From Pseudomonadota bacterium (GTDB lineage Bacteria; Pseudomonadota; Gammaproteobacteria; Burkholderiales; Gallionellaceae): DNA of 35,026 bases. This document shows, one piece after another, positions 1 through 10,685 of the stretch (the first letter of the stretch is position 1; every line of letters starts with the position of its first letter). The translations under genes and the position numbers were made by a program. The notes below the pieces were generated by a model. The model saw nothing but the letters and a program-made list of their open reading frames with translations. It made no database searches and was not told the DNA's origin. Location: positions 1 through 35,026 of the forward strand of contig JAJXTH010000022.1 in assembly GCA_021783995.1 (NCBI GenBank). Direction: 5' to 3'.

Positions 1-56
1 AACCCACGACCCTCGGCTTCGGAAACCGATACTCTATCCATCTGAGCTACGAGCGC
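1..56 (-). tRNA. tRNA-Arg (anticodon CCG), 3' end cut by window edge
   Basis: Read on the minus strand from 56, the sequence starts GCGCTCG (acceptor 5' strand), then TA, GCTC (D stem), a D loop with GGATA, and an anticodon arm TCGGT / TTCCGAA / GCCGA. The seven-base loop puts CCG at positions 34-36, so it decodes the CGG arginine codon. The variable region and start of the T arm (GGGTCGTGGGTT) follow, and the window ends before the T loop and acceptor 3' strand, so about 20 nt lie outside. Only this copy continues past the anticodon arm; the two copies upstream of it are cut at the anticodon loop. The identity is read by eye from the cloverleaf. Confidence 0.88.
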
Positions 57-141
57 GTTGTCTTGATAGGCTGTCAAAAAGGCACGACAGCCAAATTTGA
101 ACTTATGGTCATTTTACCCTACTGCGACCGAATGACCATAA
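57..141 (-). promoter_or_regulatory. Leader and putative promoter of tRNA-Arg(CCG), unit 1
   Basis: The minus-strand region upstream of the intact tRNA holds a TAAAAT -10-like box (plus-strand 111-116) about 55 nt before the tRNA 5' end. It is flanked by a perfect 12-bp inverted repeat (arms 102-113 and 131-142, CTTATGGTCATT and its complement). Between the box and the tRNA lies a perfect 7-bp hairpin, arms 69-75 and 86-92 (GGCTGTC/GACAGCC). No good -35 box is visible. The same arrangement recurs upstream of a tRNA half at 285-369. The promoter assignment is inference; the inverted repeats are directly visible. Confidence 0.45.
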
Positions 142-182
142 GCTTCGGAAACTGGTACTCTATCCAACTGAGCTACGGGCGC
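142..182 (-). pseudogene. tRNA-Arg(CCG) 5'-half fragment, copy A
   Basis: This 41-nt minus-strand stretch reads GCGCCCG-TA-GCTC-D loop-GAGT-ACCAGT-TTCCGAA-GC: the acceptor 5' strand, D arm and anticodon loop of an arginine tRNA with CCG anticodon. It stops two bases after the loop and runs into unrelated sequence (TTATGGTCATT), so the 3' half of the cloverleaf is missing and no mature tRNA can form. The anticodon-stem 5' strand (CCAGT) differs from the intact tRNA (TCGGT), so this is not simply a recent copy of it. Confidence 0.85.
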
Positions 183-243
183 GAAGAGTGAAAATTGCGG
201 AAGTGAACCGACGGTCATTTTACCACGTTGCGCTCGCATGACG
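183..243 (-). promoter_or_regulatory. Leader segment of unit 2 (promoter-like)
   Basis: This is the shorter spacer between the two tRNA halves. It keeps a TAAAAT box (plus-strand 217-222) followed on the minus strand by GACC, and the upstream GCGAGCGCAACG stretch resembling the matching part of units 1 and 3. The flanking inverted repeat is degraded here (GTCAT 214-218 with ATGAC 238-242), and the 7-bp hairpin seen in units 1 and 3 is absent. The box lies about 35 nt before the tRNA-half start, against 55 in the other units, so a roughly 20-nt piece appears to have been lost. Confidence 0.35.
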
Positions 244-284
244 GCTTCGGAAACTGGTACTCTATCCATCTGAGCTACGGGCGC
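244..284 (-). pseudogene. tRNA-Arg(CCG) 5'-half fragment, copy B
   Basis: A second 41-nt half-tRNA on the minus strand. It is identical to copy A apart from one D-loop base, and is cut at the same place two bases after the anticodon loop (TTCCGAA-GC). It then runs directly into the next repeat unit (CGTCATGCGAG). The missing 3' half means it cannot be a functional tRNA. The identical breakpoint in copies A and B, inside the anticodon arm where many tyrosine integrases cross over, is notable. The link to integration is inference. Confidence 0.85.
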
Positions 285-369
285 GTTGTTTGAAAGCGGT
301 TCAAAAAGTCACGAGAACCGCAAATTGAACTTATGGTCATTTTACCTCATTGCGCCCAAATGATCATAA
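285..369 (-). promoter_or_regulatory. Leader and putative promoter of tRNA half, unit 3
   Basis: This is the counterpart of the unit 1 leader. TAAAAT lies at plus-strand 339-344, 55 nt from the tRNA-half start, exactly as in unit 1. A 12-bp inverted repeat with one mismatch flanks it (331-342 and 358-369). A perfect 7-bp hairpin (GCGGTTC 296-302, GAACCGC 315-321) replaces the GGCTGTC/GACAGCC stem of unit 1. The stem sequences differ but pairing is kept, and the loop (AAAAAG-CAC) is shared, which suggests selection on structure. Whether transcription starts here cannot be told from sequence. Confidence 0.45.
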
Positions 370-390: not shown

Positions 391-714
391 CTATCCCGGC
401 ATGTTCTCGGCAGTCTCTTCAATGTGCTTCAGTTCCTGCCTGATCACCAATATTGCGCGGTTCATCTGACGGAATCTCTGAATGCCGAACATCACGGTCA
501 AAGCGCCGCATGGCAGACAAAGGAATCCGACAGCAGAAAACCATCCGTGGTTAGAAAAATGAATGATGGATATGCCGGCGATGAACAGCGCAACGCCAGA
601 ACGCAGATAAGAAAGTAGCGTCCTCTCGTTCGCAAGCAGTGTGCGATCGACAGCCAGGTGATCTCTTAGAATCAGTTCCGAAGCGTTGAACTGTGAATAG
701 AGGTTATGCTGCAT
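391..714 (-). CDS. DUF202 family small inner-membrane protein
   Basis: A 107-residue protein with the DUF202 (YidH-like) pattern: a charged N-terminal stretch DRTLLANERTLLSYLR, then two hydrophobic segments (about residues 35-55 and 63-83) and a charged C-terminal tail. The reading frame is open further upstream to 807, but the family homology begins near MQHNLYSQF, so I take the ATG at 714. The function of the family is unknown; it is expected in the cytoplasmic membrane. It stands alone, divergent from the CoA-binding gene and ending just before the tRNA-half array on the same strand. A TACAAT box at plus-strand 778-783 (minus strand) could be its promoter. Confidence 0.75.
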   Translation of the reverse strand: MQHNLYSQFNASELILRDHLAVDRTLLANERTLLSYLRSGVALFIAGISIIHFSNHGWFSAVGFLCLPCGALTVMFGIQRFRQMNRAILVIRQELKHIEETAENMPG

Positions 715-777
715 GGCATCTTTTGAAGTGACCGACGAAGCAAATTGTAACGAAAATCGCAAAGTGCACTTGAAGCT

Positions 778-802
778 ATTGTACCCTACTGCGCTCGAAC
801 GG
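778..802 (-). promoter_or_regulatory. Promoter-like box similar to the tRNA-leader repeats
   Basis: On the minus strand TTCGAGCGCAGTAGGG-TACAAT-AG closely resembles the core of the leader repeats near the left edge (for example CGGTCGCAGTAGGG-TAAAAT-G at 111-131). It could be the extended -10 region for the DUF202 gene. A second TACAAT lies at 744-749. No convincing -35 hexamer is seen for either. Confidence 0.3.
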
Positions 803-910
803 CTCAAACAGGTGTTATTTGCGCAGGTTGTTTTGTCTTTTGCCCATTCTATTCGGGGCAGGCATGCATAAAGATGTTATCTTTATATTTTCAAAAAGGT
901 GGTCCTAGCG

Positions 911-1327
911 ATGTTTACCAACCCGAATGCAGATGAAATACGGCAGATGTTGAAAGAGATACGCACTATTGCAGTGCTGGGCCTTTCGCCGAACGAGTCG
1001 CGCCCTAGTTTTCGGGTGGCAAAAGGCCTGCAGGACAGAGGCTATCGCATAATTCCGGTGCGCCCCATGGTCGCCGAGGTGCTGGGGGAAAAGGCATATC
1101 CCGATCTCGACAGCTTGCCTGAGAGGCCGGACATCGTCGATGTGTTTCGCGCGCCAGAGCATGTTCCGGAGATAGTTGAAAGCTGCATCAGACTCGACAT
1201 CAAACGAATCTGGCTGCAGGATGGAGTCATTCACGATGAAGCGGCGAAACGTGCAAGGGATGCAGGCATCACTGTGGTGATGGACCGGTGCCTCTGGCGC
1301 GACTGCATGCAACTATGTTCAACATGA
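911..1327 (+). CDS. CoA-binding domain protein (CoA_binding_2, YccU-like)
   Basis: A 138-residue cytosolic protein made almost entirely of one Rossmann-like CoA-binding domain: a first strand and turn IAVLGLSPNESRPS, then VAKGLQDRGYRIIPVRP, and later the IVDVFRAPEHVPEIVE segment typical of the YccU group. These small proteins are thought to bind CoA or acyl-CoA; no reaction is established. I chose ATG 911 over the upstream GTG at 899 because AAAAAGGTGG (893-902) sits 8 nt ahead of it. The stop overlaps the tag start as ATGA, so the two are probably translationally coupled. Confidence 0.85.
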   Translation: MFTNPNADEIRQMLKEIRTIAVLGLSPNESRPSFRVAKGLQDRGYRIIPVRPMVAEVLGEKAYPDLDSLPERPDIVDVFRAPEHVPEIVESCIRLDIKRIWLQDGVIHDEAAKRARDAGITVVMDRCLWRDCMQLCST

Positions 1328-3402: not shown

Positions 3403-4299
3403 ATGCATCGGGACGGGAACCGGAAATTGCTTGAAGGTTATCTCGCCTGGCTGCGCTTCGAGAAGCGCTATTCCGAGCTGACTGCAAAGAGCTATGAACG
3501 TGACCTAGGGTATCTCTTCGAACTTTCAGGCGGCACGGATCTCGCAGAAATAAAAATCCACAACATCCGCCGTTATGTCGCGGAGCTGCACGGTAAGGGG
3601 CTTGGCGGACGTTCGTTGTCGCGCCTGCTTTCGGCCTGGCGCGGATTCTACCGCTATCTGATGCGCGATCACGGATTCGAGCACAACCCCTGCATGGGGC
3701 TGCGTGCGCCAAAATCGCCCAGGGCATTGCCCGATGCGCTGTCGCCCGACCAGGCGATGCGCATGGTTGATCTGCCATGCGATACGCTAGATGCGGTACG
3801 CGACAAGGCGATGTTCGAGCTCTTCTATTCCTCCGGACTGAGGCTTGCCGAACTGGTCAACCTCGACCCTGAACACCTGGATCTGGATGCAAGCGAAGTG
3901 CGCGTGACAGGCAAGGGGGGAAAGACGCGCATCGTGCCTGTAGGCAGCTTCGCTCAGCAAGCCTTGCGGGTATGGCTGGAAGCAAGGGCAGGGCTCGCGA
4001 ATCCCGATGAACGGGCGCTGTTTGTGGGCGCGAGGGGCGCGCGCATTTCGCCCCGCGTGGTGCAGCAGCGCATGAAGCAGTGGGGAATAAGACAGGGCGT
4101 GAACGCAAGCGTGCATCCTCATGCGCTGCGCCATTCCTTTGCGACCCATGTGCTGCAGTCTTCGGGAGATCTGAGGGCAGTGCAGGAAATGCTGGGACAT
4201 GCCAGCATCTCCACCACCCAGGTTTACACGCATCTGGATTTTCAGCACCTGAGCAAGGTATACGACGCGGCCCACCCGCGCGCCAGGAAAAAGACCTGA
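3403..4299 (+). CDS. xerC: Site-specific tyrosine recombinase XerC
   Basis: Resolves chromosome dimers at dif together with XerD and FtsK. The 298 residues equal the E. coli length when translation starts at ATG 3403. An N-terminal SAM-like core-binding domain (residues about 5-90) precedes the catalytic domain, with Arg147 (SSGLRLAE), Lys171 (TGKGGK), His240 and Arg243 (HPHALRHSF), His266 (LGHAS) and the nucleophile Tyr275 (TQVYTHLD) all present. No strong ribosome-binding site is seen; a TTG at 3394 overlapping the upstream stop is an alternative. Its stop is one base from the convergent pilU stop. Confidence 0.96.
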   Translation: MHRDGNRKLLEGYLAWLRFEKRYSELTAKSYERDLGYLFELSGGTDLAEIKIHNIRRYVAELHGKGLGGRSLSRLLSAWRGFYRYLMRDHGFEHNPCMGLRAPKSPRALPDALSPDQAMRMVDLPCDTLDAVRDKAMFELFYSSGLRLAELVNLDPEHLDLDASEVRVTGKGGKTRIVPVGSFAQQALRVWLEARAGLANPDERALFVGARGARISPRVVQQRMKQWGIRQGVNASVHPHALRHSFATHVLQSSGDLRAVQEMLGHASISTTQVYTHLDFQHLSKVYDAAHPRARKKT

Positions 4300-4300
4300 A

Positions 4301-5437
4301 TCAGGTCATCTGCAGGTTGTGCGTCCCGCTCAGCATGTCGCGATCCAGCGTGTGGCGGCTCTCGAGCTTGATCTTCAGCCGCAGATCGTTGACCGAGTCT
4401 GCATTCTTGAGCGCTTCCTCGTAGCCTATGGTGCCGCTCTCGAAAAGGTCGAACAGCGCCTGGTCGAATGTCTGCATGCCGAGCTCGCGCGATTTGGCCA
4501 TCACGCCCTTGATCGCATGCACTTCGCCCTTGAAAATCAGATCAGAGATCAGCGGAGAGTTGAGCAGGATCTCCATCGCGGCGACCCGCCCCGTGCCGTC
4601 CTTCTTCGGGATCAGACGCTGCGAGATCAGTGCCTTGGTGTTCAATGAGAGATCCATCAGCAGCTGCTCCCGCCTCTCCTCGGGGAAGAAGTTGATGATG
4701 CGGTCCAGCGCCTGGTTTGCGCTGTTCGCATGCAGCGTGGCCATGCACAGATGGCCGGTCTCGGCGAATGCAACTGCATATTCCATGGTCTCCCTGTCGC
4801 GTATCTCGCCTATCAGGATCACGTCGGGCGCCTGGCGCAGCGTGTTCTTCAGCGCAGCCTCCCACGAGGCCGTGTCCACGCCCACCTCGCGGTGCGTGAC
4901 GATGCAGTTGCCGTGCTCGTGCACGTATTCGACCGGGTCCTCTATCGTGATGATGTGACCGTAGCTGTTGTGGTTGCGGTGACCCAGCATCGCCGCGAGC
5001 GTGGTGGACTTTCCCGAGCCCGTCGCGCCCACCAGGATCACAAGTCCGCGCTTGGTCATCACGATGTCCTTCAGGATGGGAGGCATGCCCATCGCGTCGA
5101 GATCGGGTATCTTCGTGGTGATGGTGCGCATCACCATGCCGACGTTCTGCTGCTGCATGAACACGTTGACGCGGAAGCGGCCTATGCCGTGCGGGCTGAT
5201 CGCGAAATTGCACTCGTGGTTTGCCTCGAACTCGGCCGTCTGGCGGTCGTTCATGATGCTGCGCGCAAGTTCCCTGGTGTGCTGATGAGAGAGAGGTTGG
5301 CTGGATACCGGGACCAGCTTTCCGTCCACCTTGAACGCAGGCGGAAATCCTGCGGTGATGAACATGTCCGAGGCTTTCTTGCTGACCATGCCGCGCAGCA
5401 AATTGTGTATCAGCTCTGTGGCCTGATCTCTTTCCAT
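4301..5437 (-). CDS. pilU: Type IV pilus retraction accessory ATPase PilU
   Basis: A 378-residue hexameric secretion-type ATPase that assists PilT in pulling back type IV pili (twitching motility, DNA uptake). Visible motifs are Walker A GATGSGKST at about 137-145, the Asp box TIEDPVEYVHEH, Walker B DVILIGEIRD, and the His box TGHLCMATLHANS. I call it PilU rather than PilT from the second position in the pair, the longer C-terminal tail and the absence of the AIRNLIRE-type C-terminal motif. It follows pilT on the same strand with an 18-bp gap, so the two are probably co-transcribed. Confidence 0.93.
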   Translation of the reverse strand: MERDQATELIHNLLRGMVSKKASDMFITAGFPPAFKVDGKLVPVSSQPLSHQHTRELARSIMNDRQTAEFEANHECNFAISPHGIGRFRVNVFMQQQNVGMVMRTITTKIPDLDAMGMPPILKDIVMTKRGLVILVGATGSGKSTTLAAMLGHRNHNSYGHIITIEDPVEYVHEHGNCIVTHREVGVDTASWEAALKNTLRQAPDVILIGEIRDRETMEYAVAFAETGHLCMATLHANSANQALDRIINFFPEERREQLLMDLSLNTKALISQRLIPKKDGTGRVAAMEILLNSPLISDLIFKGEVHAIKGVMAKSRELGMQTFDQALFDLFESGTIGYEEALKNADSVNDLRLKIKLESRHTLDRDMLSGTHNLQMT

Positions 5438-5455
5438 GGTGTGCTCCTAAGTGAC

Positions 5456-6499
5456 TTACAGCGGGAACAGATCCTTGTTCATCGCCTTGGACCGCGCTTC
5501 AGATGAGGCGACGGCATTGCTTTTGACGAGGCTCGTCAGACACTGGTCCAGCGTCTGCATGCCCATGCCCTGGCTGGTCTGAATCGCCGAATACATCTGC
5601 GGGACCTTGGCCTCGCGTATCAGGTTGCGTATCGCAGGCGTACATATCATGATTTCGTGCGCCGCGACGCGTCCCGCGCCGTCCTTGGTCTTGAGCAGCG
5701 TCTGGGAGATCACCGCGCGCAGCGATTCGGAGAGCATGGCCCTTACCATCTCCTTCTCGTCGGCGGGGAACACGTCGATGATACGGTCTATGGTCTTGGC
5801 GGCCGAACTCGTGTGCAGCGTGCCGAAAACAAGGTGGCCTGTCTCTGCTGCGGTCATCGCAAGGCGTATGGTCTCGAGGTCGCGCATTTCGCCGACCAGG
5901 ATCACGTCAGGGTCCTCGCGCAGCGCCGAACGCAGCGCATTATTGAAGGAAAGTGTGTCGCGGCCCACCTCGCGCTGGTTGATCAGGCATTTCTTCGATT
6001 CGTGGACGAATTCGATCGGGTCCTCGACGGTGAGGATGTGGCCCTGTTCCTTTTCGTTGATGTAGTTGATCATCGCAGCCAGAGTGGTCGATTTGCCTGA
6101 GCCGGTAGGTCCTGTGACCAGCACCAGTCCGCGGGGGTAGCTTGAGATGTCGGTGAATATCGCGGGCGCCTTCAGGTCCTCGAGGCTGAACACCTTGGAA
6201 GGAATGGTGCGCATGACGGCTGCCGCGCCGCGCTGCTGTATGAACGCATTGACGCGGAAGCGGGCGAGATTGGGAACCTCGAAGGAGAAGTCCACCTCCT
6301 TGTGCTCCTCGTAGATCTTGCGCTGCTCGTCGTTCATGATGTCATAGACCATCGCGTGGACTTCCTTGTGCGCCATCGCGGGAAGATTGATACGCCTCAT
6401 GTCGCCGTGCACGCGTATCATCGGTGGCAGGCCGGAGGAGAGGTGGAGATCGGAGGCCTTGTTCTTGACGCCGAAAGCGAGCAGTTCGGTGATATCCAT
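5456..6499 (-). CDS. pilT: Type IV pilus twitching motility ATPase PilT
   Basis: The main pilus retraction motor, 347 residues, cytoplasmic and hexameric at the base of the type IV pilus. It begins MDITELLAFGVKNKASDLHLS, the standard PilT N-terminus, which fixes the start at 6499 although the frame is open to 6661. Walker A GPTGSGKST is at 130-138; the Asp box TVEDPIEFVHES, Walker B DVILVGEMRD and His box TGHLVFGTLHTSS follow. The C-terminal AIRNLIREAK matches the AIRNLIRE-type motif associated with retraction. It is divergent from yggS (6555) with a 55-bp spacer. No pilin or assembly genes lie nearby. Confidence 0.96.
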   Translation of the reverse strand: MDITELLAFGVKNKASDLHLSSGLPPMIRVHGDMRRINLPAMAHKEVHAMVYDIMNDEQRKIYEEHKEVDFSFEVPNLARFRVNAFIQQRGAAAVMRTIPSKVFSLEDLKAPAIFTDISSYPRGLVLVTGPTGSGKSTTLAAMINYINEKEQGHILTVEDPIEFVHESKKCLINQREVGRDTLSFNNALRSALREDPDVILVGEMRDLETIRLAMTAAETGHLVFGTLHTSSAAKTIDRIIDVFPADEKEMVRAMLSESLRAVISQTLLKTKDGAGRVAAHEIMICTPAIRNLIREAKVPQMYSAIQTSQGMGMQTLDQCLTSLVKSNAVASSEARSKAMNKDLFPL

Positions 6500-9236: not shown

Positions 9237-10685
9237 CTACATCAGTATCACGTCGTACTGCGCCTGGGTGTACTGGCTTTCGACCTGCATGGAGATGGGC
9301 TTGCCGATGAAATCCGAGAGCCCTGCAAGCGTCTGTGACTCCTCTTCAAGGAAGAGGTCTATCACCTGCTGGGATGCAAGTATGCGGTATTCGCTGGCAT
9401 CGAACTGGCGCGCCTCGCGCACGATCTCGCGCAGTATCTCGTAACACACGGTCTGCGCGGTCTTGATCTCTCCCGTGCCGCCGCAGGTGGGGCAGGGCTC
9501 GCAGAGCAGGTGAGCGAGGCTTTCGCGCGTGCGCTTACGGGTCATCTCGACCAGGCCCAGAGAGGAGAAGTTGTTCACGCTGATGCGCGTGTGGTCGCGC
9601 GCAAGCGCCTTCTTGAATTCTTCGAGCACGGTATCGCGGTGCTGCTGGCTTTCCATGTCGATGAAGTCGCAGATGATGATGCCGCCCAGGTTGCGCAGGC
9701 GCAGCTGGCGGGCGATGACCTGACTGGCTTCCAGATTGGTCTTGAAGATGGTGTCGTCGAAGTTGCGCACGCCGACGAAGCCGCCTGTGTTCACGTCCAC
9801 CGTGGTCATCGCCTCTGTCTGGTCTATGATCAGGTAGCCGCCGGACTTGAGGTCGACGCGCCTCGACAGCGCGCGCTCGATTTCCTCCTCGATGTTGTAG
9901 AGGTCGAAAAGCGGCCTCACGCCCTGGTAGTGTTCTAGAAGGCCGGCTGCCTCGGCATTGTAGTTCTCGGCAAACTCGAGCATTTTTCTGTGCGTGCTGC
10001 GCGAATCGATCAGGATGCGCTCGGTGTCCGGACAGACGAAATCGCGCAGAACGCGAAGAGAGATGTCCAGTTCCTGGTACAGAAGCTCAGGCGCGCTTGC
10101 GGTCTGCGCGGCGAGTTTGAGATTGTTCCAGAGTTTTTCGAGATAGACGATATCTGCGGCGAAATGTGCTTCGTCCTTGGCTTCGGCAACGGTGCGTATG
10201 ATGTAGCCACCCTGGTGTTCGGGCGGAAGGATGGCCTGCAGCTTCGCGCGCAGCGCATCGCGCAGCTCCATGCCTTCGATGCGCTGGGATACGCCTATGC
10301 GCGTCTCCTGCGGAAGAAATACCAGGAGGCGGCCCGCGAAGCTCAACTGCGTGGTGAGCCTAGCCCCCTTGCTTCCTATCGGTTCCTTGATGACCTGAAC
10401 GAGCAGGGTCTGTCCCTCGGACAGTATCTTCTCGATCGGTTTCGCATCCTCGTTGCTGTTCTCCCAGATGTCGGCGACATGCAGAAAGGCCGAGCGTTCG
10501 AGGCCGATGTCTATGAATGCCGACTGCATGCCGGGCAGCACGCGCTTGATGCGGCCGAGATACACGTTGCCTGCGATGCCGCGATTGCTGCTGCGCTCGA
10601 TGTGCAGTTCTTGCACCACGCCAAGCTGCATCACGGCGACGCGCGTCTCCTGAGGCGTGACGTTGATCAGTATTTCTTCGCTCAT
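9237..10685 (-). CDS. rng: Ribonuclease G
   Basis: An endoribonuclease of the RNase E/G family that matures the 5' end of 16S rRNA and cuts some mRNAs. It has 482 residues from MSEEILINVTPQ (start 10685; the frame is open upstream to 10742). An S1 RNA-binding domain occupies about residues 35-115 (GNVYLGRIKRVLPGMQSAFIDIG). The magnesium-binding Asp297 (TTVDVNTGG) and Asp340 (IIICDFIDM) are present, as is the zinc-link CPTC at 398-401. It lacks the long RNase E scaffold tail. It lies 19 bp downstream of maf and one base before the lipoprotein gene. Confidence 0.96.
   Translation of the reverse strand: MSEEILINVTPQETRVAVMQLGVVQELHIERSSNRGIAGNVYLGRIKRVLPGMQSAFIDIGLERSAFLHVADIWENSNEDAKPIEKILSEGQTLLVQVIKEPIGSKGARLTTQLSFAGRLLVFLPQETRIGVSQRIEGMELRDALRAKLQAILPPEHQGGYIIRTVAEAKDEAHFAADIVYLEKLWNNLKLAAQTASAPELLYQELDISLRVLRDFVCPDTERILIDSRSTHRKMLEFAENYNAEAAGLLEHYQGVRPLFDLYNIEEEIERALSRRVDLKSGGYLIIDQTEAMTTVDVNTGGFVGVRNFDDTIFKTNLEASQVIARQLRLRNLGGIIICDFIDMESQQHRDTVLEEFKKALARDHTRISVNNFSSLGLVEMTRKRTRESLAHLLCEPCPTCGGTGEIKTAQTVCYEILREIVREARQFDASEYRILASQQVIDLFLEEESQTLAGLSDFIGKPISMQVESQYTQAQYDVILM

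Follow-up and report, generated by a model that had tools for sequence, protein, structure and literature searches.

Stacked 5' halves of tRNA-Arg(CCG) as probable scars of integrative elements that bring a complete tRNA gene and promoter

As reported in the available part of the Islander work, integration into tRNA and tmRNA genes leaves one regenerated gene and one displaced fragment, which was a 3' fragment in 3760 and a 5' fragment in 159 of 3919 islands (PMC4383910). According to the accessible sections of a review, bacterial tRNAs rebuilt after integration almost always remain under their original promoter, and the use of the tRNA 5' half sets pTN3-like archaeal elements apart as unusual (PMC8371274). 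Here, we describe an array of tRNA-Arg(CCG) 5' halves in the first 370 bases of a 35,026-nucleotide stretch of a Gallionellaceae genome (GCA_021783995.1, contig JAJXTH010000022.1; the whole stretch is hereafter the window, G000:C3:1-35026), which starts at a contig end. In these iron-oxidizing bacteria, the array most probably consists of stacked attachment-site scars of integrative elements that hit the anticodon loop of tRNA-Arg(CCG), each bringing a complete tRNA gene and its promoter.

Like Islander tRNA/tmRNA islands, this system combines a tyrosine integrase, an anticodon-loop crossover, a displaced fragment at the far end, and tandem islands; in contrast to what the available text describes for those islands, both host halves are displaced here, and a complete gene together with its promoter appears to come from the element (PMC4383910). 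With pTN3-like integrases it shares a tRNA that lies under an element-borne promoter after integration, a situation seldom met in bacteria, whereas the accessible sections on pTN3-like integrases describe neither the supply of a whole tRNA gene nor an array of halves (PMC8371274). SXT at prfC and IMEVchUSA3 at dusA also insert near the 5' end of their target and provide a new promoter and 5' part, but in the portion of the source at hand the targets are protein-coding and the product is a hybrid gene, not a complete replacement gene (PMC8409611). The ssrA islands of Dehalococcoides resemble the present case in repeated integration at one RNA gene, in a series of fragments, and in the accretion proposed for them; in contrast, they rely on a serine recombinase and leave 20-bp 3' fragments over up to 100 kb, and the available text describes no promoter-plus-5'-half modules stacked within a few hundred base pairs (PMC3146451). 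The new promoters at dusA and prfC (PMC8409611) and the stacked ssrA fragments (PMC3146451) are, within these portions of the sources, the nearest functional parallels. Integrases close to tRNA genes are mentioned in a paper on a Ferrovum genome, the accessible part of which does not describe the present arrangement (PMC4886054). We found no description of whole-tRNA replacement with stacked 5' halves in the open-access literature and do not claim the first one; as far as checked, the combination of whole-gene replacement and a stack of 5'-half scars departs from described tRNA-targeting integration.

Based on direct reading and repeat finding, the start of the window holds three modules on the minus strand, each with a TAAAAT-box spacer followed by the 5' part of tRNA-Arg(CCG), which agrees with the preliminary description of three units of box, leader, and arginine tRNA 5' half. 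The three same-strand copies lie at 16-67, 142-193, and 244-295; over 52 nt, the outer two show 79% and 90% identity, respectively, to the middle copy. The tRNA 5' ends of the copies fall at 284, 182, and 56, at spacings of 102 and 126 bp. Unit 1 (285-370, about 86 bp, element-type) precedes 5' half no. 1 (244-284, 41 nt, stem CCAGT), unit 2 (183-243, 61 bp) precedes 5' half no. 2 (142-182, 41 nt, stem CCAGT), and unit 3 (57-141, 85 bp, GGTCATT...TAAAATGACC, promoter/arm-like) precedes the last tRNA (1-56, 5' GCGCTCG..., anticodon stem TCGGT/GCCGA). Both partial halves share the end ...GTTTCCGAAGC, 2 nt past the 7-nt loop TTCCGAA, and diverge thereafter, so that the common end point noted earlier stands; both terminate directly after TTCCGAAGC, which comprises the anticodon loop plus 2 nt and is hereafter called the core (16-24, minus strand, in the last tRNA). 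A 102-nt probe of one unit retrieved the other copies from the same genome at E values of 6.5e-17, 7.2e-10, and 1.3e-9, and the array is therefore not a chance similarity.

The last copy had been taken for a full tRNA. It does continue past the core with a fitting 3' side, which reaches the first base of the window, but it is cut there, in the T arm, by the contig end. ARAGORN reported no tRNA at the array, and Rfam RF00005 matches the last copy with 33 bits over model positions 1-53 of 71, the 3' end being cut off. A complete tRNA identical over the visible part is present in the related genome G030. The TAAAAT boxes lie on the minus strand at 339-344, 217-222, and 111-116, the last being a -10-like box of unit 3 by consensus match only. 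The motif around TAAAAT has four matches in the window with at most 2 mismatches against 0.40 expected, a number that none of 100 shuffles reached; the fourth match lies at 778-796. Moreover, a perfect 12-bp inverted repeat, CTTATGGTCATT/AATGACCATAAG, flanks the -10-like box of unit 3 (102-142), and a similar motif forms paired repeats 3' of the tRNA in some relatives.

To place this array among relatives, 101 genomes were searched and loci were read from the matches; within the genus, 46 of 76 genomes have a readable tRNA-Arg(CCG) locus, the window being excluded from this count. Two locus states were observed, namely, a single uninterrupted tRNA behind an ancestral promoter, and a complete tRNA preceded by one or two 5' halves. 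The ancestral promoter is of the type AAAACCGCTATGCTGCGC and lies 29-32 bp upstream of the tRNA in 22 of the 46 loci. An upstream 5' half occurs in 11 loci, and a unit without an intact half occurs in G030 and G037; a 13th unit match (G015) looks spurious by eye. Neither half nor unit is present in 32 of the 46 loci, 25 of which have the ancestral motif within 130 nt. The finding that had been named as adverse to integration, the same array in all relatives with no mobile DNA, is thus not what the genus displays. The exact junction pattern occurs in 8 of the 76 genomes, the window's included. A slightly longer pattern retrieved 33 stretches across the species collection, comprising 23 with a 5' half, one right-end junction (L170), and 9 without a half; where titles of the half-bearing stretches are informative, they name Gallionella, Sideroxydans, Gallionellales, Nitrosomonadales, and Ferrovum, the rest being unspecific metagenome-assembled genomes. 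Sideroxydans belongs to Gallionellaceae and Ferrovum to Ferrovaceae, and exact junctions recur across many genomes of these two families. On a tree of the flanking gene (30 rows), array presence must have changed 6 times, and well-supported branches force 2 of these changes; therefore, the array was gained or lost more than once.

The DNA upstream of each copy distinguishes the host gene from the units. The array table has 31 rows, and the upstream count covers 31 loci, that is, the same rows without G009b and with G002. When the ancestral motif was scored by machine with up to 4 of 15 mismatches, the first copy was preceded by the ancestral motif in 16 loci, by a unit in 4 (the window, G030, G037, and G119), and by other DNA in 11; in G002, G042, and G059 among these 11, units stand before the tRNA and the script missed a decayed half. 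G124, likewise one of the 11, has an additional decayed half upstream. Before later copies, a spacer bearing AAAATGACC is found in 22 of 29 cases, the exceptions being five loci of the 211-bp type, G032, and one copy of G119. Hence, the old host gene usually survives as the first half, while later halves and the final tRNA came with the units. In 16 of the 31 loci, it is the first copy that retains the host promoter motif, and the units, which are bounded by cores, have a promoter-like box of their own; this differs from the usual bacterial case, in which the host promoter remains with the recombinant tRNA. In the window, the first half already stands behind a unit, and the host half, expected with its core upstream of unit 1, is gone from the array, either missing or decayed.

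Tandem copies on one strand would also arise if the tRNA region had simply been duplicated by slippage or unequal recombination, the 3' halves having decayed and no mobile DNA being involved. However, first and later copies often differ upstream (host promoter versus unit), intact halves share the end core, stems differ, repeats or an integrase adjoin many arrays, and the exact junctions are spread over two families. Plain duplication is accordingly highly improbable, and it was rejected on the unrelated DNA upstream of first and later copies and on their common end point.

The window's modules also recur in other genomes. Unit 2 shares 85% identity with the last unit of G046. In G046, an intact tRNA with the same CCAG stem comes after this unit, while its counterpart in the window precedes the broken half no. 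2. Unit 3 is 93% identical to another unit of G046 and 86% identical to a unit of G030, and the three genomes cluster on the flank-gene tree. Thus, the same modules are used in another order, intact in one genome and broken in the other.

The units might have been retained as regulators, expressed as short RNAs of leader plus tRNA 5' half, with integration only their origin. A promoter-like box accompanies each half in the window, although a stricter scan accepts one of the three, and the halves are nearly perfect in many arrays. On the other hand, halves are decayed in G032, G037, and G059, and the 32 genus genomes with single loci have none. Judged from sequence, such retention seems improbable.

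To follow the split gene, orphan 3' halves starting from the same core were collected. They were found in G116 (C23) and G117 (C31) among 17 genomes searched, and in G000 (C17), G019, and G040 among 61 genomes of the genus; these counts are lower bounds, as the reading covered the 53 listed places except four (G016, G026, G034, and G047). Displaced 3' halves mark a split target in G009, G116, G117, and G127, and the window's genome has only the unlinked orphan on C17. In G009, G116, and G117, the two stems tested are free of mismatches when the host 5' half is combined with the 3' half from the far end, the new tRNA pairs with itself, and every crossed combination of halves adds a wobble or mismatch. 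Consistent with this, the separate donors proposed earlier for the differing anticodon stems fit wherever both ends are known.

A single 250-kb contig of G127 carries both junctions, at a distance of 2.2 kb. On stretch L201 of this genome, the ancestral promoter and host half (3834-3874) are followed by a unit and by the new tRNA, which is complete (3949-4025). Repeats and a single cargo gene (4520-6076) come next, then TTTCCGAAGC and a 3' half that has an internal deletion and the host-type end CGGGCGC. In G108 (L176, G108:C142, about 1500), right-end-like DNA runs directly into the core and a truncated 3' half, and these into the element repeats, an order as expected for a second element entering the tRNA of the first; the internal deletions in the orphan 3' halves of G108 and G127 resemble each other. 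In G009:C7, a unit and an element 5' half come after right-end DNA and lead into a 3' half that differs, which fits excision at the inner core or nested insertion. The claim of whole-tRNA replacement rests on the split-gene pairs together with G127.

In a competing account, the large element performs a classical restoration of the 3' half, and the unit-plus-5'-half pieces are small core-bounded modules, or remains of 5'-restoring islands, that were joined to an existing 3' half. Cores do bound the units, the element 5' half of G009:C7 is joined to a differing 3' half, element-type repeats stand in an ordinary 3'-restoring arrangement in G024, and 5'-fragment islands are known (159 of 3919 in the available part of Islander, PMC4383910). 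However, in G009, G116, and G117 the host halves agree with each other and the new tRNA has a matching 3' half of its own, and in G127 the acceptor strand of the far-end 3' half is of host type; joint arrival accounts for these matches, whereas independent cassettes do not. Moreover, no island lies between the halves, whose spacers measure 61-170 bp. The new tRNA is not a fusion of one host half and one element half in G009, G116, G117, or G127; G024 fits such an ordinary fusion. The layout is not 5'-restoring either, the element lying downstream of the new tRNA and the host 3' half being displaced, and G009:C7 alone shows an element 5' half joined to a 3' half that differs. Collectively, classical repair combined with cassettes is an unlikely explanation, though less so than the two above.

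The element itself adjoins the new tRNA on the downstream side. Paired repeats of the type ACTTRNGGTCAT (at most 1 mismatch) occur in 7 of the 76 genus genomes: 3' of the tRNA at array or unit loci in G009, G014, G030, G036, and G053, 3' of an ordinary tRNA in G024, and 3' of the truncated 3' half in G108. GTGMCY direct repeats with about 11-bp spacing lie 54-56 bp after CCA in 14 of the 31 array rows and 132-134 bp after it in 2; among the 15 other rows, 4 have too little sequence for this feature. Either kind of repeat follows 8 of 13 genus loci with a half or unit and 1 of 33 others (one-sided Fisher test by hand, about 4e-5, for genomes that are not independent). Both kinds may serve as arm sites of the integrase.

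An integrase near tRNA-Arg(CCG), which had been suggested as something to look for, was indeed matched by tblastn in 7 of the 31 array rows: 745-944 bp downstream in G046, G117, G120, and G124, and farther away once in G030 and twice in G123. Among these carriers, G117 is Ferrovum myxofaciens P3G. The two integrases analyzed with Pfam (G046 and G030) contain PF00589 Phage_integrase and PF12167 Arm-DNA-bind_2. An excisionase-like open reading frame (ORF), so named from position and size only, precedes the integrase in G030 and, by DNA reading, also in G037, G024, and G116. With regard to CIMEs or accretion remnants, att-bounded segments that lack an integrase and accumulate at one site, cores bound the units, G127 has no integrase match, and G108 looks like a tandem junction; the units may or may not be of this kind.

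Based on these observations, we propose the following course. Beside its attachment core, the element would carry its own promoter, a complete tRNA-Arg(CCG), arm-type repeats, the excisionase-like ORF, and an Arm-DNA-bind_2 tyrosine integrase. A crossover in the core would split the host tRNA so that its promoter and 5' half stay in place while its 3' half ends up at the far end; the tRNA of the element would then assume the role of the host tRNA. The anatomy, both types of junction, the replaced upstream DNA, the complementarity of the split halves, and an integrase beside some arrays are seen in the sequence, whereas the chemistry of the crossover, the arm-site role of the repeats, and the activity of the promoters are inferred. 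The array could then grow by two routes. In route (i), the new tRNA holds the same core and a later element would insert there. In route (ii), excision between the core of the new tRNA and the right-end core would leave a unit-plus-5'-half of about 105-126 bp, or 211 bp in Ferrovum-type loci. Each event by either route would add one module, and three would account for the window, whose array may have formed by route (i) or (ii). The successive-integration scars suggested at the outset hold in outline: 32 of 46 loci with a single tRNA, arm-like repeats or an integrase, and orphan 3' halves agree with them, but what each event supplies appears to be a whole tRNA gene with its promoter, not just a new 5' half.

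Several observations weigh against this course. In the window, no integrase or other element DNA is visible, the contig ending inside the tRNA, and the window's genome, assembled to 94.6% completeness, has no integrase match at E≤1e-50; the element may have been lost or left unassembled. The orphan 3' half of this genome (C17:1343) pairs with the last 5' half and with neither partial half, and an exact-pattern search found no 3' halves matching halves 1 and 2. A link of C17 to the window by right-flank synteny failed, since the flank matches were mostly to tRNA-Val and did not lie beside the tRNA-Arg of relatives; with this pairing and without flank synteny, the link is unproven, though a contig break inside a stretch shared with C17 fits an assembly break caused by a repeat. 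For the other genomes, the two ends in G009, G116, and G117 lie on different contigs, and G127 has an internally deleted orphan 3' half and no integrase match between its junctions. Direct repeats are absent from 11 of 27 testable array rows. No empty site that shares both flanks with a filled site was found, nor was any with the right flank of G127 among the collected loci, and phage, plasmid, and viral collections gave nothing beyond tRNA-sized or chance matches.

G024 (L175, G024:C66, about 1500) also speaks against the proposed course: its tRNA is intact, has the ancestral promoter but neither half nor unit, and is followed by paired (+7) and direct (+56) repeats. This locus represents either an ordinary 3'-restoring relative of the elements or a former array whose unit was removed when two cores recombined. 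Such repeats are therefore not exclusive to whole-tRNA elements and do not prove whole-tRNA replacement. Furthermore, an intact tRNA-Arg(CCG) is separated from an orphan copy of its 3' half by a segment of about 1.1 kb in G019 and about 2.2 kb in G040 (L134 about 9522-10685; L133 about 3828-6118); these look like ordinary 3'-restoring insertions without a 5' array and lend no support. For the window, the explanation by stacked scars of whole-tRNA elements thus draws on homologous arrays that are better preserved, no element being seen in place.

Core-to-core spacings fall into classes of 102-106, 114-116, 125-126, and 211 bp (29 spacings from 24 genomes, a set without G002, G037, G042, G059, and G131). 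They cluster near multiples of 10.5-10.7 bp, a post hoc observation on four length classes for which a 9.6-bp period is nearly as good. The test gave p of about 0.025 at 10.5 bp, and 0.0006 if the best period between 10.2 and 10.8 bp is chosen in both data and control. We treat helical phasing of the cores as a lead only.

On balance, we lean toward a distinct integration strategy, in which the attachment region contains a whole tRNA gene with its promoter, the host gene is replaced outright while a fresh target is supplied, and the host tRNA is repeatedly overwritten, its 5' halves forming an expandable insertion record with core-to-core spacings near whole helical turns. The host gene would then be lost and replaced, so that the tRNA and its promoter become the property of the element. 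tRNA-Arg(CCG) reads CGG codons and is probably needed. An element that owns a needed tRNA would be hard to lose, and an element-borne tRNA would let tRNA sequence and promoter spread between species. In addition, the order of insertions at a single site would be recorded in the stacked halves. The arrays also make it testable which of several near-identical cores, spaced by about 10-12 (or 20) helical turns, an integrase uses.

Cargo differs between elements. In G030, a SmaI-type restriction enzyme and a methylase lie between the tRNA and the integrase (L065 2413-4319), and the cargo gene of G127 encodes an MzaB-like ATPase. A pair resembling a Gp49-like toxin and a helix-turn-helix (HTH) antitoxin lies near right ends in G000:C17 (264-883, L136) and G009:C7 (L135 958-1514); the antitoxin-like protein is 98% identical between the two, and Pfam was applied to the G000 pair only. 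In the G116 element (L212 2383-8701), consecutive proteins of 228, 837, and 1041 aa gave no Pfam or PADLOC match; by eye, the 1041-aa protein has integrase-like stretches, and the 228-aa protein resembles a 214-aa protein at G009:C7.

The integrase type also adjoins tRNA-Pro(CGG) in G037 and G024, where similar GTGMCC repeats are seen (L128 7590-7666 and L130 6063-6139). The same mechanism was considered for these sites and rejected, as no upstream 5' half is present; this suggests one integrase family with two modes of target repair. An origin in a known phage or plasmid was likewise rejected, as the attachment region gave only tRNA-sized or chance matches, none covering 80%. In viral contigs, the tRNA-plus-repeat pattern had no exact match, and the one viral match from another search lacks a tRNA half.

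Beyond the array, a DUF202 gene (391-714, minus strand; Pfam PF02656, 4.6e-15) lies between the array and the host flank. A tblastn search at E≤1e-5, with loci then collected, found it in no relative's locus but in G000 only. Upstream of it, motif scan and alignment identified a unit-like promoter region (715-811, minus strand) with a TACAAT box at 778-783, whose local score against the units is 46, compared with a background maximum of 35 in 1130 window segments; it looks as if a unit had turned into the promoter of a cargo gene. The divergent gene that follows (911-1327, plus strand), CoA-binding-protein-like by eye from sequence, is the left neighbor of tRNA-Arg(CCG) in many relatives as well.
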